Shown here: piece by piece, positions 2,815 through 50,340 of the stretch
Position numbering within the stretch: position 1 is the first letter of the stretch
Layout: each line of letters starts with the position of its first letter
DNA from: Melanopsichium pennsylvanicum
Taxonomy: Eukaryota; Basidiomycota; Ustilaginomycetes; Ustilaginales
Length of the DNA: 64,000 nt
Direction: 5' to 3'
Assembly (NCBI GenBank): GCA_900208305.1
Contig: OAPG01000002.1
Location: 1,116,001-1,180,000 of the forward strand
Position numbers and translations under genes: made by a program
Notes under the pieces: model-generated
The model's database searches: none
What the model was told of the DNA's origin: nothing
The model's input: only the letters and a program-made list of their open reading frames with translations

Positions 2815-3065
2815 CCGATCAAAGTGGGTAGTCCTAGTTCTTACGAATCTAGTTTTCGGTTCAGTCTGATTCAAATTCACGCACATATTCTCATCAATTT
2901 TGCTGCACATGCACAAGAATCATCGTGCTTTTTCAAGACTGTTCCACACTCGGAAAGATTTTCACTTACCCCTAACATATAGTATTTCAGAAGACAAGCA
3001 ACACGTATGAACATGGAGGAGGAAAGAGGGGAGAAGTAAGATCGCATCATGATGGCTCACTACTT

Positions 3066-5189
3066 TTAAGGCTTGTTAGCGTAGCTTGAGACGATGAAGC
3101 TGATTGCGTTCTCAGCAGCCTGGACGCCTGCGACGAATTGGGCATTGTAGGTTGTTTCGTCGCTGGATTTGAAGTGACCGGCGGTTAGGTATGATTTGAA
3201 TGTGTCTTTCTGGTATTGGTTGGCGAAGCCGAGACGTGAAAGCGAGTCGGTGGAAGCAGCTAGGATGCGTGAAGTGTAGAAGCCGTCAGAAAAGCCTCGA
3301 CTTGAAACAGTAGCGTTAGTGGCAGTACTACCGGCGCGTTCCATAATTCGGTCTTGCTGGACAATACGAGTAGCAAAAGTGGTGTAACTACCAACACCAC
3401 GTTTGTTCGCCTCTGACGAAACATGCTGAGAAGTCTCGGCAATGGGGTAAAGGGAACGACCGAAACCGTTGGGTCCAATCTTGCCCATGAAATTTTCGTC
3501 CTCATCATCATCATCATTATCATCAACAGTCAGGAAGGATTTGGCTGACTTGATGGCTGTGCTGTTTGATGGTAATCGCACACGGCTAATTTCAGTGCGA
3601 ATCGGAGAAAGCGCACCAAGCTTGTCACCTGTCAAGTTACCAGCAGCAGCGAGCGAGGTAGACGACACTGGAATGCCCCAAGAAGAGTAGTTGCCCTGAA
3701 GGTATTTGTTGGAAGCGCTTTGGAAGCACCAACCCGAATTCTGATCGCAATTCTCCATCTTGTACGACCAAAACGTCCAACCTGAACCAGTAGTCTGCCA
3801 AATATCCTGTTGAGTTTGGCAGAACTCTGTCTGATCCTGGACTGGATTCTTGCTATTCTGAATGGAACTCCAAGCCAGAGCGCACGACCATTCGCCAACA
3901 ATAAGGTTGCGACGGGCAATAGAAGACTGTGCTGCAAATTGGTTGAAGATGGAACCATCAAGCTTGGAGATATGACCTTGGGCCGAGAGGGCCTGATCCG
4001 AGGCAGTGTAGACATAGTAAGAGTGATGGTCCGAGATCACAAAGTCGGATCTCTTGGATACAAAGGCAGCGCCCTTTTCGAGAACGAAAGCGTCGTGAAA
4101 GTAGAGTGGGATGGTCTTTGCGTATGGCGAAGCGGCACGCATAGCATCCATGGCTCCAGGAAGCCAATTCCAATAGCTATCGCGGTTTTGAGGTTCGTTG
4201 AGAAGCTGAATACCAATAACATTGGTCACGTCCGAGATCTCTTTGGCGATCCAAACCAAGAGCTCTGTAGTAAGATTCTGGTTCCAAGAGTTGTACCATT
4301 CAATGTTACCATCGTTGAGACCAGAGTGAGCCTGACCGTTCTGAGAGCCATAAGCTCCGTGAAGGTCAACGATGACACCAATATCGTACTTGGCAGCCCA
4401 ATTGATGGCACGCGCGACGTAGCGCCAACTGTACTCGTAGACCGACTGATATTGATCAAAAGGACTGTAGTGGGTGAAGTAGGGACCTGCAGACCAGTAG
4501 CCGATGGGCAGACGGACGGTGTTGATACCCATTTGAGCGAGGTCGCTGAAATCATCTTCAGTGATCCAAGTGTCCCAGTGCTGCTCCATGTAGGCACGCG
4601 CCGAGGTGAGACCGTCCTTCGAGGTACCAAACCCGTCAAGGATGTCAAATTCGGCTTGCTTGGTACCCGTAGCACAAGACATGAATCCACTCTCCATCCA
4701 ACCTTCCTGAACGAACCAAGCGCCAAGATTGACACCCTGTTGTTGTCGGTAGCGCATGATAGTGGCTTTCACCGGATCAAAATCGGGAAAAACGGGGGGA
4801 GGAAGGGCATCAGATCCGCCTTTTGGCGTATATCCGGTAGAGTAAGGGCAGCTCCCTGGGCCCACTTTTCGCGACGAAGCCAGCTTACGAGCTGCGTCGC
4901 CTTCAGTACTAGTAGTCTGATTGAGTGACTCTACAGGAACGTAGAGGGTGGAGGGCATACCCCATTCGGAGGAATTGTGGGTTGCGGTCCAGTCGGTGGT
5001 GGAGCCTATCTTTTGAACCTGAAAGGAGTTGGCCTTGCCGTTTACAGTGTTGCGACCAGCTCCTGTGTCAGAAATCAAAGTGCTCTGGTTGGCAGAGGGG
5101 AGCTGCGGGATGGGCTTGTAGTTAGCAGCAGCCAAGGAGAGGGCACTCGCTACAGCGTTGAGACTGGTGTCCCTGGGTAAGAGCCTCAT
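3066..5189 (-). CDS. GH5 exo-beta-1,3-glucanase (glucan 1,3-beta-glucosidase-like); 5' exon unresolved
   Basis: A 707-residue glycoside hydrolase family 5 protein, probably acting on cell-wall beta-1,3-glucan outside the cell. The catalytic domain starts near residue 150 (QGVNLGAWFVQEGW). The acid/base Glu is in LLNEP near residue 334 and the nucleophile Glu in VGEWS near residue 433. DLHGAYGSQNG and SDHHSYYVY are further GH5_9-type signatures. A long N-terminal Ser/Thr-rich extension and an Asp/Glu-rich stretch (NDDDDEDE) after the catalytic domain are unusual. The ATG at 5187-5189 gives only a weak signal peptide. It lies 8 bp after a good 3' splice site (branch-like CACTAAC, acceptor GACAG just before 5197), with an in-frame TGA inside that acceptor. 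A short first exon with the real signal peptide is therefore likely upstream, but I could not fix the donor. Confidence 0.85.
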   Translation of the reverse strand: MRLLPRDTSLNAVASALSLAAANYKPIPQLPSANQSTLISDTGAGRNTVNGKANSFQVQKIGSTTDWTATHNSSEWGMPSTLYVPVESLNQTTSTEGDAARKLASSRKVGPGSCPYSTGYTPKGGSDALPPPVFPDFDPVKATIMRYRQQQGVNLGAWFVQEGWMESGFMSCATGTKQAEFDILDGFGTSKDGLTSARAYMEQHWDTWITEDDFSDLAQMGINTVRLPIGYWSAGPYFTHYSPFDQYQSVYEYSWRYVARAINWAAKYDIGVIVDLHGAYGSQNGQAHSGLNDGNIEWYNSWNQNLTTELLVWIAKEISDVTNVIGIQLLNEPQNRDSYWNWLPGAMDAMRAASPYAKTIPLYFHDAFVLEKGAAFVSKRSDFVISDHHSYYVYTASDQALSAQGHISKLDGSIFNQFAAQSSIARRNLIVGEWSCALAWSSIQNSKNPVQDQTEFCQTQQDIWQTTGSGWTFWSYKMENCDQNSGWCFQSASNKYLQGNYSSWGIPVSSTSLAAAGNLTGDKLGALSPIRTEISRVRLPSNSTAIKSAKSFLTVDDNDDDDEDENFMGKIGPNGFGRSLYPIAETSQHVSSEANKRGVGSYTTFATRIVQQDRIMERAGSTATNATVSSRGFSDGFYTSRILAASTDSLSRLGFANQYQKDTFKSYLTAGHFKSSDETTYNAQFVAGVQAAENAISFIVSSYANKP

Positions 5190-41877: not shown

Positions 41878-42289
41878 TGTTAGTGCCCCACCAACCGTAG
41901 TCCAAAGAGTGGGCGCTTGGCCCCCCCCTCCCAATTGAGCAACCGTCGCAATCAAGCCACGACCCTCCTACCGTCCAACCGCGCCTGGCCCCTCCGTAAG
42001 CAGAATACGGCTGTTGGCAATCTAACATTGTAGCGCCGCGGTGGGAGGTAGTTACCGCAGTTGGCACGGGAGGTGATCAATAGTTCTTGGACCTTACCAC
42101 CCCGCCCCCGCCTGACATGAGGTTGCCTCCAGACCTCGTTGCATGTATTACTTAGTTAGCTCTACAGCAACGCAGTAGTGTGCTCTGACCCCCGACCGCC
42201 TGTGTTGCCCACGCCTACGACCTCTCCGTACCCGTAGACCCCATCCCGGCTGTAGCCGCCCGCGGTATCTAGACCCTACAGCCTTAACA
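41878..42289 (+). mobile_element. Solo LTR (412 bp) of subfamily B
   Basis: Begins TGTTAGTGCCCCACC and ends CAGCCTTAACA. Related along most of its length to the LTRs of the full element, with many substitutions and some indels, so older. Flanks CTTGG (41873-41877) and CATGG (42290-42294) differ at one base and may be an eroded 5-bp target duplication. Confidence 0.8.
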
Positions 42290-42323
42290 CATGGACGCTG
42301 CAGGATTCCCACAGGTTGCGTGG

Positions 42324-42516
42324 TGTTAAGGCTGTAGGGTCTAGATACCGCGGGCGGCTACAGCCGGGATGGAGGCTACGGGTACGGAGAGGTTGTAGGC
42401 GGGGCGACACAGGCGGTCGGGGGTCAGAGCACACTACTGCGTTGCTATAGAGCTAACTAAGTAATACATGCAACAAGGTCCGGAGGCAACCTCATGTCAG
42501 GCGGGGGCGGGGTGGT
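42324..42516 (-). mobile_element. Left half of a minus-strand LTR split by the full chromovirus
   Basis: Reads TGTTAAGGCTGTAGGGTCTAG, the reverse complement of an LTR end, and proceeds until the GTGGT at 42512-42516. The right half resumes at 50083. This half carries subfamily A-type differences (for example GGATGGAGGCTACGGG). It faces the LTR at 41878-42289 with a 34-bp spacer. Confidence 0.8.
42512..42516 (+). repeat. 5-bp target-site duplication, left copy
   Basis: GTGGT immediately before the 5' LTR, repeated at 50083-50087. Confidence 0.85.
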
Positions 42517-42947
42517 TGTTAGTGCCTACCAACCGGAGTCCAAAGAGGGGGTGCTCGGCCCCCCTCCCGATTGAGCGATCGTTGTGATCGGGCCCCGACC
42601 GACCCTCTCCGGACCCCTCGCGGCGGAGCGGTTGGCCTGACACGATCCTCCTACCGCCCAACCGCGGCTGGCCCCTCCGTACGTAGAATACGACCGTCGG
42701 CAACCTAACATTGTAACGCCGCGGTGGGAAGTGACCGATAGCTCCTGTACCTTACCACCTCGCCCCCCGCCTGACATGAGGTCGCCTCCGGACCTCGTCG
42801 CATGTATTACTTAGTTAGCTCTATAGCAACGCAGTAGTGTGCTCTGACCCCCGACCGCCTGTGTCGCCCCGCCTACGACCTCTCCGTACCCGTAGCCTCC
42901 ATCCCGGCTGTAGCCGCCCGCGGTATCTAGACCCTACAGCCTTAACA
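42517..42947 (+). repeat. 5' LTR of the chromovirus
   Basis: 431 bp, TG...CA with TGTTA/TAACA inverted ends. It contains GTCGCATGTA at 42797-42806, complementary to the PBS, which would mark the start of R (transcription start) if the element self-primes as Tf1 does. Confidence 0.92.
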
Positions 42948-42948
42948 T

Positions 42949-42958
42949 TACATGCGAC
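42949..42958 (+). promoter_or_regulatory. Self-complementary primer-binding site
   Basis: TACATGCGAC, one base after the LTR end. It is the exact reverse complement of 42797-42806 in the LTR (10 of 10). No match to the 3' end of the local tRNA-Lys is seen. This is the layout of self-priming Tf1/sushi elements, where the mRNA 5' end folds back as primer. Confidence 0.7.
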
Positions 42959-42986
42959 CTCCCCACGGGACGACGTCGTAACCAAG

Positions 42987-44222
42987 ATGAGTACACGCTC
43001 CAACCGACGAAACCAAACGGACGCCTCCCCCCAAGCGGAGGGAGACGCTCCCACCATTTCCCCCAGCGGAGACGAGCCCGCCAGCGTCGTTGCACCCTCG
43101 GGCAAACCGCCCGCCGCCCTGACCACCTTGGTCCAAGGGCAAGTGGATATCCTGGCGCTTCTGCGTGAAACCTCTGAACAACAGCGGCGCATTACCGCTC
43201 TGTTAGAGGCCGCCTTCTTCCCCAGGGAGGATCAACCTAGACCGGAGTCTTCCCAGCACTACCAAGGAGCAACCGCTGCCCAGGTTCCCCCGCCAACCGT
43301 AGCCCCCGTTTACGTGGAGGCCGCGCCCCGCGAGCCAGAGATTCGACTCCAGGCTCCGGAATGGGACGGCAGCCAAGACAAACTGGAGGACTTCTTGGAT
43401 CAATGCGAACTCAACTTCGAGGCTAATCCCTCCAAGTTTCCGACGGATGCCCGTCGCATCATGTTTGCCATCGGCAACATGACGGGCAAACCACGAACCC
43501 GCATTCGCAATGTGCGACAACAGGAGGGGGAGGATCCACCCTGGATGAACTCCTGGAGGGCCTTTTGCGCCGACCTCCGTTGCGTCCATGGCGATCCCGA
43601 CCCCAGCTACACCGCACGCCTCCAACTGAATGCCCTCCGCCAGAAGGGATCAGTATCGGAGCACGCGGCGGAGTTCATGTCGCTGACGGCCAAATCGCAC
43701 CTGACCGACCAGCAGCAGGCGTTGATGCTGTTTGAACAAAGCCTCCGGCCGCGCCTACGGGAAAAGCTCACCCACGTGCCGATGACCGACATCCGTGACT
43801 TCATCAACGCCGCCATTGTCACGGAGCGCCGGATGCAGGTGATACAGGAGGCCACAACAAGACCCACGGAGTCACAGCTGCGACACCGACCGCCCCTCCC
43901 AGCCGTGACGGCCAAACGAGAGCCCCCGGAGGGACCCCGCAAAATGGAACGACCTCCACTACCGGCCAAGGACCCTACGCGTGATGCGGCGGAACGCCTC
44001 CGCCAGCACCGACGGACCAACGGGCAGTGCTTCGGCTGCGGTGGCAGCGACCATTTGGCCCGTGACTGCCCGAAGGCGCCCCAAACACAAACTCTCCGGG
44101 CACATGCTATTTCATTCGACAACGATTCCGGGACTATACTCGTCAACCCCATGGATGACAGGTCAGCCTCCAACCCCGACAGCGACCTATCGGATTTGGA
44201 GGATCCCCCGGAGGGAAACTAA
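42987..44222 (+). CDS. Gag of the chromovirus
   Basis: 411 residues from ATG 42987 to TAA 44220-44222. The frame extends further upstream into the LTR, but this is the first ATG after it. The capsid-like segment (about 120-290) includes QAPEWDGSQDKLEDFLDQCE and FEANPSKFPTDARRIMFAI, typical of Ty3 Gag. A single zinc knuckle CFGCGGSDHLARDC (C-x2-C-x4-H-x4-C) is near residues 350-364 after a basic Arg/Pro-rich linker. The last codons GAG GGA AAC TAA form the slippery site. Product: virus-like-particle shell and nucleocapsid. Confidence 0.9.
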   Translation: MSTRSNRRNQTDASPQAEGDAPTISPSGDEPASVVAPSGKPPAALTTLVQGQVDILALLRETSEQQRRITALLEAAFFPREDQPRPESSQHYQGATAAQVPPPTVAPVYVEAAPREPEIRLQAPEWDGSQDKLEDFLDQCELNFEANPSKFPTDARRIMFAIGNMTGKPRTRIRNVRQQEGEDPPWMNSWRAFCADLRCVHGDPDPSYTARLQLNALRQKGSVSEHAAEFMSLTAKSHLTDQQQALMLFEQSLRPRLREKLTHVPMTDIRDFINAAIVTERRMQVIQEATTRPTESQLRHRPPLPAVTAKREPPEGPRKMERPPLPAKDPTRDAAERLRQHRRTNGQCFGCGGSDHLARDCPKAPQTQTLRAHAISFDNDSGTILVNPMDDRSASNPDSDLSDLEDPPEGN

Positions 44223-44257
44223 GGGTCGATGGGTTCCTTCGGTCCGAACCCATCGAC
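44213..44257 (+). promoter_or_regulatory. -1 ribosomal frameshift signal between gag and pol
   Basis: Slippery heptamer GGGAAAC at 44213-44219, in frame as G GGA AAC and directly followed by the gag stop TAA. After a 5-nt spacer, 44225-44236 (GTCGATGGGTTC) pairs perfectly with 44246-44257 (GAACCCATCGAC), a 12-bp stem with a 9-nt loop. Loop bases 44239-44245 are complementary to 44307-44313 (GGACCGA), so a pseudoknot is possible. The -1 frame reads straight into pol. Confidence 0.85.
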
Positions 44258-47200
44258 AACCTAAGCCAGCTCCGGGTGCTCGCCGCAGCATTCTGGGCAG
44301 CCCACCGGACCGACACTCCCGTCGTGGAGCAAGAGGGATCCGTTCTCCGGATCCATCAACACCCTACCTTACCAACCTACGAATGCTTGGTAAGCGTCGG
44401 CGACACGCAAGGCCTCGCCTTGCTCGATACCGGCGCCACCGCCTCTTTCATTACTCCCAAAATGGTCGCAACGGCCAACATTCCTACCCACTCCCTCCGT
44501 AAATCCGTCCACGCCACATTCCTCCAGGGCATGTCGGCCGCCATCAGTCGCCACGCGGCGGTGGATATCATCATCAACAACCACTGCATCACCTCACGCC
44601 ACCAACTCTTCATCACCCCCATGACCTCCCACGACGTGCTGTTGGGTATGGATTGGATCGAGGCCGCCAGGCCGGAGCCAAACTATACCCTCCGTACGTG
44701 GGACCTCCGGGTCCCCCACACCGTCACGGTGCCCTCCAACCCCAAACTCGAAAGGAACGAACTCCACAACTTGGTCGGCCGGCAACAGCTGGTCTCCACT
44801 GAGGAGGACCTGCTGGTCCTCCCAGAACCGGAAGAGGAGCTACTGCCCCTCCGAGCTTCCGCGACCGACCTCGCCGTCCTACCGCCAGAGTACCGCGAGT
44901 ACGCCGACGTCTTCGACGCCGAGAGGGCCGACCAATTGCCTCCCCACCGCCCACACGACCATGAGATCAACCTGGAGGCTGGCAAAACCCCTCCCTACGG
45001 CGCACTCTACTCCCTGTCGCACCGCGAACAAGAGGAGCTCCGGAACTACCTCCGGAAGATGCAGGCCATTGGCTTCATCCAACCGTCGAGTAGCCAAGCT
45101 GCCGCGCCCCTCCTTTTTGTACCAAAGAAGGACGGTCGCCTCCGGCCGTGTGTGGACTACCGCGCCCTCAACGCCATCACCGTCAAGGATTGCTACCCGA
45201 TCCCCCTCATCTCCAAACACCTTGATTGGCTGGCGACAGCCAAGATATTCACTAAATTCGACCTGAAGGGTGCCTACAACCTCCTCCGGATCGCCCCCGG
45301 CCACGAATGGAAGACCGCATTCCGCACGCGCTACGGCAGCTACAAATACCTCGTCATGCCGTTCGGCCTCTGCAACGCTCCGGCGACCTTCCAACGGCTC
45401 ATGAACCACGTGCTGTCGGATCTCTTAGACGTGTCCGTCATCGTATATCTGGACGACATCCTAGTCTTCTCCGACAACGAGGCCGACCACCACCACCACG
45501 TCTGCCAAGTGTTAGATCGATTACGGAAGCATCAGCTGTATTGCGCTCCGGACAAATGCGAATTCCACACCGCCTCCGTCGAGTTCCTCGGCTACCTCGT
45601 CAGCCCCAACGGCCTCTCCATGGACCCGACCAAGGTCAGTACAGTCTTGGAGTGGCCGCCACCACAGTCGATCCGACAGATCCAAGTCTTCCTCGGATTT
45701 GCCAACTTCTACCGTCGCTTCATCCGCCACTATTCTCGTGTAGCGGCCCCCCTCACCGACCTCCTGAAAGGAGGAGCCTCCAGAAAGGTAGATCTGCCCC
45801 CGGAAGCAACGGCAGCCTTCAACCGGCTGAAGGAAGCGTTCACCTCTGCCCCTATCCTCCGGCACTTCTCTCCAACGCTCTACACCGTCGTCGAAACAGA
45901 CGCAAGCGATGCTGTGGTAGCCGCCGTGCTGTTGCAGTGGCACCCACAGCCGGGCGCCGACGCGAGCGCCGAGCCCAACAGCCGCTTGCATACCCTCCAT
46001 CCTGTGGCATACTGGTCGCGAAAAATGATCCCGGCGGAGCGTAACTACGAAATCCACGACAAGGAACTCCTGGCTATCGTAGACGCCTGCGGCGCTTGGA
46101 GACACTACCTCCATGGCCTCACCCGACCGTTCCTCATTTACACCAACCACCAGGCGCTCCAGTATTTTCAGACGAAGCGACAACTCAACCGTCGCCAAGC
46201 CCGCTGGCAAGCCGACCTGGCTGAGTTTGACTTTGTCCTCCACTACTGTCCGGGTAAGGAGGCCGTCCGCCCCGACGCTCTGAGTCGCCGGCACGACTTG
46301 TTCCCCAACGGACCGTCGCGCCCAGACCCCGCCAACCAAGCCACTCTCCTCCCTGCAAACTTGTTTGCAAGGGCAGCCGGCGTACACTCCTCGGACCCCC
46401 TGCCTACGGAGTGGATCAAAACCCTCCGGAAAGCGGCCAACCTCCCCCCAAACGTTGCCGTCCGCGATGGTGTCCCGTACACCACAGAGGGTCACGTCTA
46501 CCTGCCACCCCAATTACGGGACAAGGCACTCCACCTACTGCACGACCACCCTACGGCAGGACATCCTGGCCGCAAGACGACCCTCCATCTCATGCGTCAA
46601 CGTTTTTACTGGCCAACCATGGTGCAGGACACCGACAGCTATGTCGCCTCTTGCGCGGCCTGCCGACGGGCAAAACACCCCCGTCACAAACCCCACGGCT
46701 ACCTTCTCCCGTCGGTCCCTCCCGATCGGCCGTGGTCCACTATTACCATGGACCACATCACTGACCTCCCGCCCTCCCTTGCCAACGGCACCACCTACAA
46801 CTCCATTCTCGTAGTCGTCGACCGCCTCACCAAGTTTGTGGTCTTCATTCCTGCAAACAAAACTGATACGGCGGAGACCTTGGCGTACCAGCTCCACCGC
46901 TACGTCTTTTCATACTTTGGCCTCCCGGACACCATTGTATCTGACCGAGGAACCACGTTTGTAGCTTCCGTTTGGACGGAACTCCTCCGGGCCCTCCGGA
47001 TTAAAGGGTCTTACTCGTCGGCCTACCACCCTCAAACAAATGGCCAGACCGAGCAAGCCAACCAGACGTTGGAGTTGTTCCTCCGCTTCTATACGGCCTA
47101 CAACCACAGCGACTGGGCAACCCTCCTGCCGACAGCCCAGCTTGCGCTGAACCAAAGACCGTCGGCGACCACAACCATCGCCCCGGCTATAGCTTGCTTC

Positions 47201-47782
47201 ACATTTGCACCTCGGGCACACCCCTCCATCCCCCCGGCCACCTCCAACGTTCCGTCGGCGGATAAAGTGCGGGTGTGCCAGGACGCCATCGCCAAAGCTA
47301 ACCTTGCCGTCGCAAAGTGGTTTAACCGTCGCAGGAGCGACGTCTCGTTCCGCCGGGGGGACCTGGTGCTCCTCCGTACCAAGCACCTCCGCAGCGACCG
47401 ACCCTCCCACAAGCTCTCCAACCCCCTCGCCGGCCCGTTCAAAGTCGACGAGGTGATTAGCGACCGAGCCTACCAACTCCTCCTGCCTCCGTCGTGGAAG
47501 GTCCACCCCGTCTTTCACGTACAGATGCTGGAGCCATACCCCGACGGAGTCAGGGAGTCCAGCGACGCCCCCCAACCGACGACTCTGGAGGACGACTACG
47601 CCGATTTCGAAGTCGAGGGCGTATTGGACTCCCGCCGCCGCGCCGGACGCCTACAGTACAAGGTCTCCTGGGTAGGGTACCCCCCAAGCTGGGTCCCGGC
47701 GGAAGACGTGGACCGCGCCCCGGATCTGGTCGCTGCGTACCACACCGCAAACCCGACCAAGCCTGCCCCTACCCGGCGCTAG
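44219..47782 (+). CDS. Pol of the chromovirus: PR, RT, RNase H, integrase, chromodomain
   Basis: About 1187 residues, in the -1 frame relative to gag and without an ATG near its start, so made by frameshifting. Protease: LLDTGATASF. RT: KKDGRLRPCVDYRALN, FDLKGAYNLLRI, MPFGLCNAPATFQ, YLDD. RNase H: VETDASD, NYEIHDKELLAI, TNHQALQYF. Integrase: the HHCC zinc region (H...H in HDHPTAGHPG, then CAACRRAK), catalytic D/D/E in MDHI, SDRGTTF and NGQTEQANQT. A GPY/F-type region (LAGPFKVDEV) is followed by a C-terminal chromodomain (YADFEVEGVLDSR...YKVSWVGYPPSW), which in chromoviruses targets integration to modified chromatin. All catalytic residues are present and no stop interrupts the frame. Confidence 0.93.
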   Translation, partial: LRVDGFLRSEPIDNLSQLRVLAAAFWAAHRTDTPVVEQEGSVLRIHQHPTLPTYECLVSVGDTQGLALLDTGATASFITPKMVATANIPTHSLRKSVHATFLQGMSAAISRHAAVDIIINNHCITSRHQLFITPMTSHDVLLGMDWIEAARPEPNYTLRTWDLRVPHTVTVPSNPKLERNELHNLVGRQQLVSTEEDLLVLPEPEEELLPLRASATDLAVLPPEYREYADVFDAERADQLPPHRPHDHEINLEAGKTPPYGALYSLSHREQEELRNYLRKMQAIGFIQPSSSQAAAPLLFVPKKDGRLRPCVDYRALNAITVKDCYPIPLISKHLDWLATAKIFTKFDLKGAYNLLRIAPGHEWKTAFRTRYGSYKYLVMPFGLCNAPATFQRLMNHVLSDLLDVSVIVYLDDILVFSDNEADHHHHVCQVLDRLRKHQLYCAPDKCEFHTASVEFLGYLVSPNGLSMDPTKVSTVLEWPPPQSIRQIQVFLGFANFYRRFIRHYSRVAAPLTDLLKGGASRKVDLPPEATAAFNRLKEAFTSAPILRHFSPTLYTVVETDASDAVVAAVLLQWHPQPGADASAEPNSRLHTLHPVAYWSRKMIPAERNYEIHDKELLAIVDACGAWRHYLHGLTRPFLIYTNHQALQYFQTKRQLNRRQARWQADLAEFDFVLHYCPGKEAVRPDALSRRHDLFPNGPSRPDPANQATLLPANLFARAAGVHSSDPLPTEWIKTLRKAANLPPNVAVRDGVPYTTEGHVYLPPQLRDKALHLLHDHPTAGHPGRKTTLHLMRQRFYWPTMVQDTDSYVASCAACRRAKHPRHKPHGYLLPSVPPDRPWSTITMDHITDLPPSLANGTTYNSILVVVDRLTKFVVFIPANKTDTAETLAYQLHRYVFSYFGLPDTIVSDRGTTFVASVWTELLRALRIKGSYSSAYHPQTNGQTEQANQTLELFLRFYTAYNHSDWATLLPTAQLALNQRPSATTTIAPAIACFTFAPRAHPSIPPATSNVPSADKVRVCQDAIAKANLAVAKWFNRRRSDVSFRRGDLVLLRTKHLRSDRPSHKLSNPLAGPFKVDEVISDRAYQLLLPPSWKVHPVFHVQMLEPYPDGVRESSDAPQPTTLEDDYADFEVEGVLDSRRRAGRLQYKVSWVGYPPSWVPAEDVDRAPDLVAAYHTANPTKPAPTRR

Positions 47783-47961
47783 GCACGGATACGAGCGACG
47801 GTCGCCGTCGGGAGACCCCCCGCCGGAACCAAAGCCCCTCCGGTCCCCGACCTCTTGGCTAGGAGACCCGGTCGGGCTCCCCTCACCCCCACTCCCACAC
47901 ACGGACACACACACACGCAAGCGACAGAAAAAACAAATGCATTCGAATAAGGGCCCCGGGG
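47783..47961. other. Spacer between pol stop and end of antisense gene
   Basis: 179 bp with a CA-rich stretch at about 47903-47930. Pol and the antisense gene converge here. No gene was seen. Confidence 0.4.
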
Positions 47962-49186
47962 CTAGTCCCTCAGGAAGCCCTCCAACCACGCCCAGACCAC
48001 GTCCACCTGCTGTCGCGTGTTCTGCGACAGCTGCTGGATCTCGCTGATCCGGCGGAGCTCTCGCTCGCCGCCGGTCCTCAGCGACTCTGCCAGCAACAGC
48101 GCAGCCACGTCGGCCAGCCCCTGTTGAAATAACTCAGTCCCCTCCTGCACCCCGTGGAAGAGGGACTCGGCACGCCTTACGGCCGCACCCAGGTCCCCCA
48201 GGCCCGTAGCGGACTCCCCCGGCTGGCCTTGGGCCCGCGCCCGAGTGCGGCGCCGCTCTCGGGCAGCCTCGGCTGGACGGTCAGGGCGGGACCTAGCTCG
48301 CTTGCGAGCCGCCTCCCGCTCCCGACCCACCGCGCCCACCCGAGCCACCTCCTCCCTCAATTCCTCCTCCTCCTCCGGGATCTCGCCAAGTGTCCTCAGC
48401 GACAACCTGACGTTGGGGTGGGGGCGGCGACGCCAACCGACCCCCCCGGACCTCCACCTCTCAAGCAAGCACGCGTAAACCCTCATTTGGAGGGGACCTT
48501 GGGCGCCGCCAAGTGGGGGGACTGTCGGGGGAAACAAAGGAAGAACAAGAGTCAGCCGGCCACCCAATACATCGCGACAGACGCCCGACGGAAATACTTA
48601 CCGCGCATATCCGCGTCACAGGGTTGCCCATGCTGCCCCTGACACCAACGGCAGCGGAGATCGCCTCCCGCCCGCTCACAGGCAACGCCGGCGCATACGC
48701 AGGCGTAGCAATCGCCCCACGTCTCGGCCCATAGCGGGGCAAGGTCTGTTGTATTGGCCACGGAAACACAAACGTCAGTAACGATCCCAATCAACACAGC
48801 AATGGAACAAATACTTACCATCACCAACGAGTTCCGGAGTGATCTCGATGGGAACCGAAGGACGCGACCACGGCATCGAGTTCCGGGGCGCCAGGACGAG
48901 GGAAGTGTTGGTCGATGCAGAGGAAGGAATGGCCGACGGATCGGCGTGCTCGCGACGGCCCGAGTTGGCCCCCCGGGAAAGGTGAGCACGCGGGGAGCGA
49001 CGCACCCCCCGGATGGGACCAGCGGAGGTCCCCGACGGCCGATCTGTCGTAATCGAAACAAGGGGGAGGGAACAAATGTCAGTAACCCATCCCACGGCAC
49101 CGACCGGTGGTTGCCAGACCCCCTGGGCCCCCCATCCACAACCGAATCACGACGGAACCACGACCGACTCACCTCCGGAAGCGGGT

Positions 49187-49222
<36 letters not shown>

Positions 49223-49350
49223 GCTGCTGCTGCTGTTGCCGACGCTGCCGCCGTTGCGGACGTAGGCAATGGTGGGGGGACGGTACTGATATCGGCCGAC
49301 GGGTTGTCGGCCGGGGAATCCATGGAAGCGTCTGCTGGTGACGACGACAT
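47962..49350 (-). CDS. Antisense four-exon gene inside the chromovirus, Zn2Cys6-like cysteine cluster protein
   Basis: Reading the minus strand, I assemble four exons: 49350-49173, 49043-48819, 48745-48602 and 48521-47962. Three introns (129, 73 and 80 nt) begin GTGAGT, GTAAGT and GTAAGT, end CAG, and each has a CTGAC branch-like site. All are phase 1; the joined frame has no stop and gives 368 residues. Parts: a Ser/Asp/Ala start with a poly-Thr run (exon 1), an Arg/Pro/Ser-rich linker (exon 2), a Cys cluster at residues 147-177 with C-x2-C-x6-C-x8-C-x2-C-x7-C spacing (exon 3), and a Glu/Arg-rich helical, coiled-coil-like C-terminus (exon 4). A TATA-like box lies about 65 bp upstream. I do not recognise the family; a DNA-binding or RNA-binding accessory factor is possible. 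Confidence 0.7.
49187..49237 (+). repeat. Trinucleotide repeat (GTT/GCT) coding poly-Thr/Ala in the antisense gene
   Basis: About 12 TTG units grading into TGC units. On the minus strand it encodes the Thr and Ala run in exon 1 of the antisense gene. Such repeats change length easily. Confidence 0.8.
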
Positions 49351-49410
49351 TGCGAAAAGGGAATGGGGAAGAATGGGGGAAATCGAGAAGGAAGACCCGT
49401 CGACCCCCAT

Positions 49411-49420
49411 CCTTATATCC
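49411..49420 (-). promoter_or_regulatory. TATA-like box for the antisense gene
   Basis: Minus strand reads GGATATAAGG, 60-70 bp upstream of the ATG at 49350, a normal distance for a fungal TATA box. Seen by eye only. Confidence 0.4.
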
Positions 49421-49639
49421 CCCCTCAATAGCTACGCACAAGCAATGGCGCACAGTCAATTCCGCCGGTCCAAGGCCTTGTGGGTGGTATTGCCTCATTG
49501 CTGCGCATCCGCGATTAAATTGCCGAGACGAGCGTCGCGACTTGTACAGAGAGGCGTCCCTGGCGCGGATTAAGGTTGAGGGAGTACGACCCCCCTCGCC
49601 CTCCTGTCCTATCAGCCGCCTGGGGACCAGTCGGCCTGA

Positions 49640-49651
49640 ACCGGGGGGTAA
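49640..49651 (+). promoter_or_regulatory. Candidate polypurine tract next to 3' LTR
   Basis: The run ACCGGGGGGTAA abuts the 3' LTR and contains six G. It is short for a polypurine tract but in the correct place to prime plus-strand synthesis. Confidence 0.4.
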
Positions 49652-50082
49652 TGTTAGTGCCTACCAACCGGAGTCCAAAGAGGGGGTGCTCGGCCCCCCT
49701 CCCGATTGAGCGATCGTCGTGATTGGGCCCCGACCGACCCTCTCCGAACCCCTCGCGGCGGAGCGGTCGGCCTGACACGATCCTCCTACCGCCCAACCGC
49801 GGCTGGCCCCTCCGTATGTAGAATACGACCGTCGGCAACCTAACATTGTAACGCCGCGGTGGGAAGTGACCGATAGCTCCTGTACCTTACCACCCCGCCC
49901 CCCGCCTGACATGAGGTCGCCTCCGGACCTCGTCGCATGTATTACTTAGTTAGCTCTATAGCAACGCAGTAGTGTGCTCTGACCCCCGACCGCCTGTGTC
50001 GCCCCGCCTACGACCTCTCCGTACCCGTAGCCTCCATCCCGGCTGTAGCCGCCCGCGGTATCTAGACCCTACAGCCTTAACA
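49652..50082 (+). repeat. 3' LTR of the chromovirus
   Basis: 431 bp; I count six differences from the 5' LTR, all C/T or G/A transitions, four of them at CpG positions. Confidence 0.92.
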
Positions 50083-50087
50083 GTGGT
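50083..50087 (+). repeat. 5-bp target-site duplication, right copy
   Basis: GTGGT immediately after the 3' LTR; identical to 42512-42516. Confidence 0.85.
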
Positions 50088-50340
50088 AAGGTCCAAGAAC
50101 TATCGATCACCTCCCGTGCCAACTGCGGTAACTACCTCCCATCACGGCGCTACAATGTTAGATTGCCAACAGCCGTATTCTGCTTATGGAGGGGCCAGCT
50201 GCAGTTGGACATGTTAGGCCGACTGCTCCTCTGTGGGGGATCCGGAGAGGATTGGTTGTGGCTCGATTGCGACAGTCGCTCAATTGGGAGGGGGGGGCCA
50301 AGCGCCCACTCTTTGGACTACGGTTGGTGGGGCACTAACA
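50083..50340 (-). mobile_element. Right half of the minus-strand LTR split by the chromovirus
   Basis: Continues from 42516 and ends GGGGCACTAACA, the start of an LTR in reverse. Together with 42324-42516 (less one copy of GTGGT) it makes an LTR of about 446 bp. This half resembles subfamily B (GTTGGCACGGGAGG-type sequence), the other half subfamily A, so the LTR is mosaic. Confidence 0.75.

Follow-up and report, generated by a model that had tools for sequence, protein, structure and literature searches.

A probable spliced gene on the antisense strand of a chromovirus

The DNA analysed here (the window) is a stretch of 64,000 nucleotides from the smut fungus Melanopsichium pennsylvanicum (contig OAPG01000002.1, positions 1,116,001 to 1,180,000); unless a locus is named, positions are those of the window. 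It contains a chromovirus, a chromodomain-bearing Ty3/gypsy retrotransposon bounded by long terminal repeats (LTRs), whose family we call F1. The minus strand of the 1.87-kb spacer from pol to the 3′ LTR is occupied by four exons, which join into a single open reading frame (ORF) of 368 codons plus a stop through three introns, all of phase 1. The sequence features and copy comparisons presented below make it very probable that this is a real, spliced, protein-coding gene. Its parts are as follows.

49411..49419, minus strand: TATA-like box GATATAAGG of the antisense gene
49173..49350, minus strand: exon 1, 178 nt, Ala/Thr-rich, ATG at 49350 (sequence and copy alignment)
49044..49172, minus strand: intron 1, 129 nt, GTGAGT...CAG, branch CTGAC at 49078-49082
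48819..49043, minus strand: exon 2, 225 nt (sequence and copy alignment)
48746..48818, minus strand: intron 2, 73 nt, GTAAGT...CAG, branch CTGAC at 48774-48778
48602..48745, minus strand: exon 3, 144 nt, holding the cysteine cluster
48618..48710, minus strand: cysteine cluster CX2CX6CX8CX2CX7C, residues 147-177, in exon 3
48522..48601, minus strand: intron 3, 80 nt, GTAAGT...CAG, branch CTGAC at 48551-48555
47962..48521, minus strand: exon 4, 560 nt including the stop, no indel in 35 copies
48226..48324, minus strand: Lys/Arg-rich stretch in exon 4, resembling a nuclear localization signal by eye (14 K/R counted in 41 residues)

The preliminary description of this locus had reported four stop-free exons with GTGAGT or GTAAGT donors, CTGAC branch-like sites, CAG acceptors and a common intron phase, and all of these were reproduced. 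The junctions that it had proposed for split reads (49173/49043, 48819/48745 and 48602/48521) coincide exactly with the exon edges. It had also placed the gene antisense between pol and the 3′ LTR, which agrees with the map, and the introns are thus antisense to the genomic RNA. Skipping of exon 3 would preserve the frame, because its 144 nt lie between two phase-1 introns.

When the 1.87-kb spacer was shuffled with its dinucleotide composition kept, one of 500 shuffles produced a spliced ORF of at least 368 amino acids with comparable splice signals. Under the same rules the real antisense strand gave a longest spliced ORF of 388 amino acids with three introns, and the antisense strands of seven overlapping gag-pol stretches gave at most 197 codons.

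The element that hosts the gene looks intact, as the preliminary description had stated: the LTR pair, the GTGGT duplication, gag and the pol domains with the chromodomain were all located.

42517..50082, plus strand: host chromovirus, whole element (LTR edges)
42512..42516, plus strand: target-site duplication GTGGT, left (read from the sequence)
42517..42947, plus strand: 5′ LTR, 431 bp, TG...CA (direct repeat)
42987..44222, plus strand: gag (Pfam capsid and zinc knuckle matches)
44159..47782, plus strand: pol frame, open from 44159 (Pfam protease, reverse transcriptase, RNase H and integrase, with a chromodomain near the end)
49652..50082, plus strand: 3′ LTR, 431 bp (direct repeat)
50083..50087, plus strand: target-site duplication GTGGT, right (read from the sequence)

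The two LTRs differ at 6 of the 429 bases compared. The gag product matched Ty3_capsid with 29.2 bits (cut-off 29.1) and Retrotrans_gag above its cut-off, with zf-CCHC just below. The order reverse transcriptase, RNase H, integrase, followed by a C-terminal chromodomain, identifies the element as a chromovirus.

Two further observations concern the element itself. The sequence TACATGCGAC (42949-42958) begins at the second base past the 5′ LTR and has its complement inside the LTR (42797-42806), an arrangement that we take to be reminiscent of self-priming in the Tf1/sushi group. Older LTR-like pieces surround the element in a nested arrangement (41878-42290, 42324-42512 and 50083-50340); they are 83-98% alike, and some are inverse.

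Conservation of start, splice sites and frame among F1 copies

We aligned the whole spacer of 35 of the 38 fetched F1 loci, excluding the partial L036, L037 and L040. The start codon is present in 34 of the 35 copies, and among their 105 introns the donor GT is retained in 104, the acceptor CAG in 105, and a CTGAC branch sequence in 105, where it lies 30-37 nt ahead of the intron end (counted from the branch A). Stops or frame breaks in related elements, which the preliminary description had named as evidence against a gene, were found in two copies: L012 has a stop and L034 a frameshift, leaving the frame open in 33 of 35. Two open copies have other losses, L007 lacking the ATG and L017 one donor. 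An ATG, three GT-AG introns and an open frame thus occur together in 31 of 35 copies.

The pattern of length changes distinguishes exons from their surroundings. Intron lengths differ by single bases among copies. Exons 3 and 4 have no indels in 704 nt, exon 2 has indels of 9 and 18 nt only, and exon 1 has five multiple-of-three patterns in or beside a triplet repeat and one frame-breaking pattern. Distinct frame-breaking gap patterns numbered one in 1107 nt of exon and 11 in 763 nt of non-coding sequence (p = 4e-4); with a variable T-run set aside, the non-coding count was 7 in 763 nt (p = 0.01).

A short duplication (alignment near 49361) creates an upstream in-frame ATG in 23 of the 35 copies. 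The distance from this codon to the old ATG is exactly 48 nt, in frame, in 23 of 23 copies and across the T-run, whereas in the same copies seven different distances separate the first ATG from a fixed landmark upstream. The TATA-like box, which in the window lies 61-69 nt upstream of the ATG and outside the LTR, is identical in 35 of 35 copies, consistent with a candidate antisense promoter belonging to the gene itself.

F1 copies also appear in less regular surroundings. A cluster of F1 copies and fragments, inverted and truncated, lies at C8:506-522 kb. MEPE_01710 (P0007; C3:505040-507200, equivalent to L041 4041-6201) is annotated as a truncated gene with SNase and Tudor domains, Tudor-SN-like in our own reading, and its 5′ exons are a fragment of the antisense gene. 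At C3:189654-190484 (189.6 kb) there is a longer frame, open for 1030 amino acids, with SNase matches. L003 and L007, the F1 copies near these two C3 places, group as sisters in the tree, which makes a segmental duplication likely.

Features of the predicted protein

In the F1 product a low-complexity N-terminus is followed by the cysteine cluster, a basic stretch and, at the C-terminus, a part that by eye seems helical. Seven of its eight cysteines fall within residues 147-177, six in the pattern and one extra. The spacing is retained in all 33 open copies; it arose in none of 20,000 shuffles of the whole protein and in 14 of 20,000 when only 42 residues were shuffled. The Zn2Cys6 (Zn_clus, PF00172) regulators of fungi have the spacing CX2CX6CXnCX2CX7C in common with the F1 cluster. 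The consensus CX2CX6CX5-12CX2CX6-8C, which we take to describe the Zn2Cys6 cluster, accommodates it as well, and the basic residues presumably usual between cysteines 2 and 3 of such regulators are missing in F1. Neither TRP28 nor bZIP was matched by Pfam in the F1 protein, and a sequence search of the PDB with the annotated protein P0005 returned nothing meaningful.

Comparable genes in two further families

A second chromovirus family, F2 (L042, on C20), has a pol that is 42-43% identical to that of F1 and carries a spliced-looking antisense gene in the same place. In L042 its exons are 2301-2914 and 2990-3446, which encode 356 amino acids and are separated by one intron. Among the best 40 of 180 candidates scored, at least 25 near-full-length places besides L042 were found; 20 of them were fetched and read with L042, giving 21 copies. 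ATG and CAG are present in 21 of 21, the donor GT in 20 of 21, and a box TTAAATAG in 21 of 21; the intron is 70-89 nt long, with CTGAC inside it in 20 of 21. The coding length is always 1071 or 1050 nt, a multiple of three, with no frame-breaking indel (0 in 1071 exon nt and 20 in 529 non-coding nt, p = 3e-10). The ratio of non-synonymous to synonymous change (dN/dS, ω) is 0.52, with a synonymous excess of p = 5e-7. A sense-strand ORF was considered in place of the F2 gene and rejected, as the other frames have higher ω; the mirror frame, which shares third positions, has ω 0.58 and five stops in the reference copy. The cysteine pattern CX2CX6CX20CX2CX7C is present in 20 of the 21 copies, one with a stop inside the pattern, and the Pfam match to Zn_clus is non-significant (E = 7.5). 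None of the viral contigs scanned with F2 exon 1 matched.

The F2 element of L042/L043 (C20:484287-493149) has LTRs of about 1 kb, and its antisense gene begins some 100 bp from the 3′ LTR. F1-like LTRs (80% alike) flank this element on both outer sides, and an early impression that F1 and F2 had an LTR in common was dropped once the true F2 LTRs had been found.

A third family, F3 (L066 and L065), was reached through weaker F2 matches. The L066 protein is homologous to the F2 protein, about 35% identical over some 180 residues, and the two genes have a common intron place within the conserved stretch IP-intron-CFPSxFAD, with pol ends that are only 58% identical. In L066 the antisense gene has the end of pol downstream of it, on the other strand. 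In L065 (C22:259800-262700) an F1 element is inserted into exon 2 of the F3 gene; F1 was therefore mobile once that F3 copy had been established.

How regularly the gene accompanies the element, and what speaks against it

We paired 109 chromodomain hits of the genome with antisense-gene hits on the opposite strand, allowing −200 to 4000 nt downstream, and used 40 of 42 F1 rows, 40 F2 rows and six F3 places (86 in total). The chromodomains were sorted into bands by profile score only, and the bands include some other proteins. In the F1 band, 36 of 44 chromodomains had an F1 gene and one had an F2 gene; in the F2 band, 31 of 38 had an F2 gene; in a small in-between band, one of four was paired. 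Twelve of the 86 antisense hits had no chromodomain partner.

Several observations weigh against a genuine accessory gene of the element, and the distribution provides the first. In the band of F3 and the chromovirus L038, four of 23 chromodomains had an F3 gene, one had an F2 gene and 18 were unpaired; from its coordinates, one of the 18 adjoins an F1 insertion that split its gene. No related antisense gene was seen in the chromoviruses L038 and L039, a pair in which L038 has the pol closest to that of L066 among those seen. The gene is hence found almost constantly in F1 and commonly in F2, but most F3-type elements lack it; they have multiplied nonetheless, so the gene is dispensable there. 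In F2 itself a premature stop is present in 10 of 21 copies (11 are without one).

The protein, too, stands largely alone. Pfam gave no match for the F1 product, the PF00172 profile included, whose cut-off was not reached. Searches with it found only seven M. pennsylvanicum proteins and no homologue outside the species; one of these searches scored only the 7999 candidates with most words in common, a selection in which low-complexity words may have displaced others. Exon 3, and the cysteines with it, is skipped in four annotated models (P0001-P0004) and kept in P0005. In our reading of the matches, the four models otherwise support the predicted structure, with the same exon 1/exon 2 junction and with exon 4 included from its predicted edge. 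Homology of the F1 protein with those of F2 and F3, suggested by the cysteine spacing, was unsupported (BLASTP E 0.54, hhalign P 0.43), and shuffles with the cysteines fixed matched the scores in 1229, 205 and 1114 of 2000. In the absence of detectable relatedness the genes are either very old relatives or two separate gains.

Selection on the amino acid sequence is the weakest part of the case. Of the dN/dS comparison across copies that the preliminary description had proposed, one half favours constraint: with each variable column counted once, ω was about 0.75 for the whole F1 frame (1.12, 0.59, 0.84 and 0.69 for exons 1 to 4) and 0.65 for the last 393 codons of pol, and the synonymous excess in F1 had p = 0.03. 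The other half does not: parsimony on the tree gave about 0.90 for internal branches and 1.05 for terminal ones, as against 0.39 and 0.59 for pol. Fixed non-synonymous to synonymous differences between F1 copy groups were few (4:2, 5:2 and 11:6), near the neutral ratio of about 1.95, and the few in pol were all synonymous (0:0, 0:2 and 0:1). A first count over 33 copies gave 52:48 for single-copy and 76:37 for shared changes (about 2:1 expected), the opposite of simple purifying selection before insertion. Nonsense changes numbered two in the variable columns, with 6.2 expected, which is not significant (p = 0.05-0.10), and three by parsimony, with 11.1 expected. Exon by exon, some other frames come near the ω of the gene, and two of the five in exon 1 fall below it. 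Frequently changing CpG sites and the youth of the copies blur all these estimates. Taken together, they indicate that amino acid constraint on F1 is weak or mild.

Alternative explanations

The strongest alternative, which we consider unlikely, is that the antisense RNA itself matters, pairing with the sense RNA and acting by silencing or interference, and that the coding frame is a relic. Non-coding roles of antisense transcripts are discussed for other LTR elements in PMC7264820, and the low amino acid constraint found by parsimony and in the fixed differences would suit such a role. A relic frame, however, does not lead one to expect that frame-breaking indels shun the exons of both F1 and F2, that the upstream ATG is in frame in every copy that has it, or that F2 shows its synonymous excess. 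The conserved introns, moreover, would serve no obvious purpose if the RNA acted by pairing.

Slightly less probable still is a captured host gene, carried as a passenger by transduplication and open only because the copies are young. The introns are of the ordinary fungal type, and PMC7264820 discusses the capture of genes by class I elements. However, searches of this genome with exons 2, 3 and 4 revealed no host paralogue: the matches resembled element copies or fragments, at least 78% identical, and the sole low match (44%, E = 0.03) lay beside another fragment. Capture also fits poorly with the regular presence of the gene beside F1-band chromodomains, and with the similarly built gene that F2 and F3 have at this place, their intron position being common to both despite the diverged pol ends.

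It is improbable that the gene is a domesticated or hitch-hiking sequence, of use to the host or to a second, nested element and not to the chromovirus. Its frequent absence from F3-type elements and the annotation of a gene fragment at the 5′ end of the truncated Tudor-SN-like gene could be read in this way, but the gene accompanies the element in nearly all F1 copies, and the window showed no repeats that would mark separate ends for it. An open frame with splice signals arising by chance, a length that one shuffle in 500 attains, is a negligible prospect that the copies, once compared, effectively refute, since splice sites, branch, start and frame are kept in the 35 copies and recur in a second and a third family.

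Discussion

We favour, with some reserve, the reading that the antisense gene is a genuine accessory gene of F1, read antisense, spliced by the host and encoding a protein of about 370 residues that may act in trans in the nucleus. More broadly, F1 elements and the other families probably make a second, independently expressed protein. We infer transcription, splicing in vivo, binding of zinc and DNA and regulation by the F1 protein. In the proposed mechanism, the host would transcribe integrated copies toward pol from a promoter bordering the 3′ LTR on its pol side, and would splice the antisense pre-mRNA into the message for this protein. The introns, being antisense to the genomic RNA, would not be spliced from it and would be restored at each new insertion, which would explain why they persist. 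Because of the introns, the protein could be made only from nuclear DNA and not from packaged RNA. It might then act in the nucleus on the element or on host chromatin, as a regulator of transcription, silencing or integration. This role is modelled on what has been proposed for plant antisense ORFs and on what is known of HBZ, and by that analogy a DNA- or chromatin-acting regulator is a tentative assignment for the protein.

The preliminary description had called such a gene a distinct strategy, which holds in part. Antisense accessory genes are already known from plants and from human T-cell leukaemia viruses (HTLV); a multi-intron coding gene in fungal chromoviruses, with comparable genes in other families, goes beyond them. 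The plant cases recounted in PMC7264820 and PMC11963269 include maize Grande gene23, described there with its own promoter and a nuclear product, together with rice RIRE2, Silene Retand with TRP28, and PvRetro13. Like the F1 gene they are antisense, lie in the interval between pol and the 3′ LTR and occur in most copies of some families; F1 thus has in common with the plant-type aORF-3R class its position and its presence in most family copies. They differ in having plant hosts, and Retand is a non-chromovirus with TRP28, whereas the genes described here belong to fungal chromoviruses and have one to three coding introns and a six-cysteine cluster. The word intron is absent from the main text of both papers.

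In HTLV, spliced antisense transcripts encode HBZ (HTLV-1) and APH (HTLV-2/3/4), and HBZ is a nuclear regulator (PMC10186651). F1 likewise has an antisense gene, for which spliced transcripts are predicted from conserved signals. HBZ, in contrast to F1, belongs to the bZIP proteins and is expressed from the 3′ LTR; the F1 TATA-like box lies outside the LTR, its protein has no bZIP match, and its coding region is cut by three introns. A parallel for such introns is provided by the antisense homing-endonuclease genes inside myxomycete group I introns (PMC9548176), which are presumed there to have a separate pol II transcript. As in F1, a mobile element carries an opposite-strand protein gene cut by a spliceosomal intron, although element and protein are of different kinds. 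An antisense ORF of 67 amino acids is described for a mussel element in PMC10974842, and the main text of a study of smut retrotransposons (PMC9603552) does not contain the word antisense. Among the titles and abstract openings of the best-ranked papers in a literature search, which covered few subscription journals, none dealt with spliced antisense genes in fungal LTR elements. Conserved coding introns in an antisense gene of fungal elements appear to be new.

These findings indicate that several spliceosomal introns can persist in a coding gene of a retrotransposon if that gene lies on the antisense strand, and they extend antisense accessory genes from plants, HTLV-type retroviruses and a mussel element to fungal chromoviruses. 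With a multi-copy element and two further families at hand, the function of an antisense accessory protein becomes testable in a small fungal genome. Conceivably, though we hold this wider view only loosely, antisense, intron-bearing genes for nuclear proteins with cysteine clusters form a permanent second class of genes in fungal chromoviruses, either acquired repeatedly or very old, whose introns would act as a filter for integrated DNA and whose products may be the fungal counterpart of HBZ.
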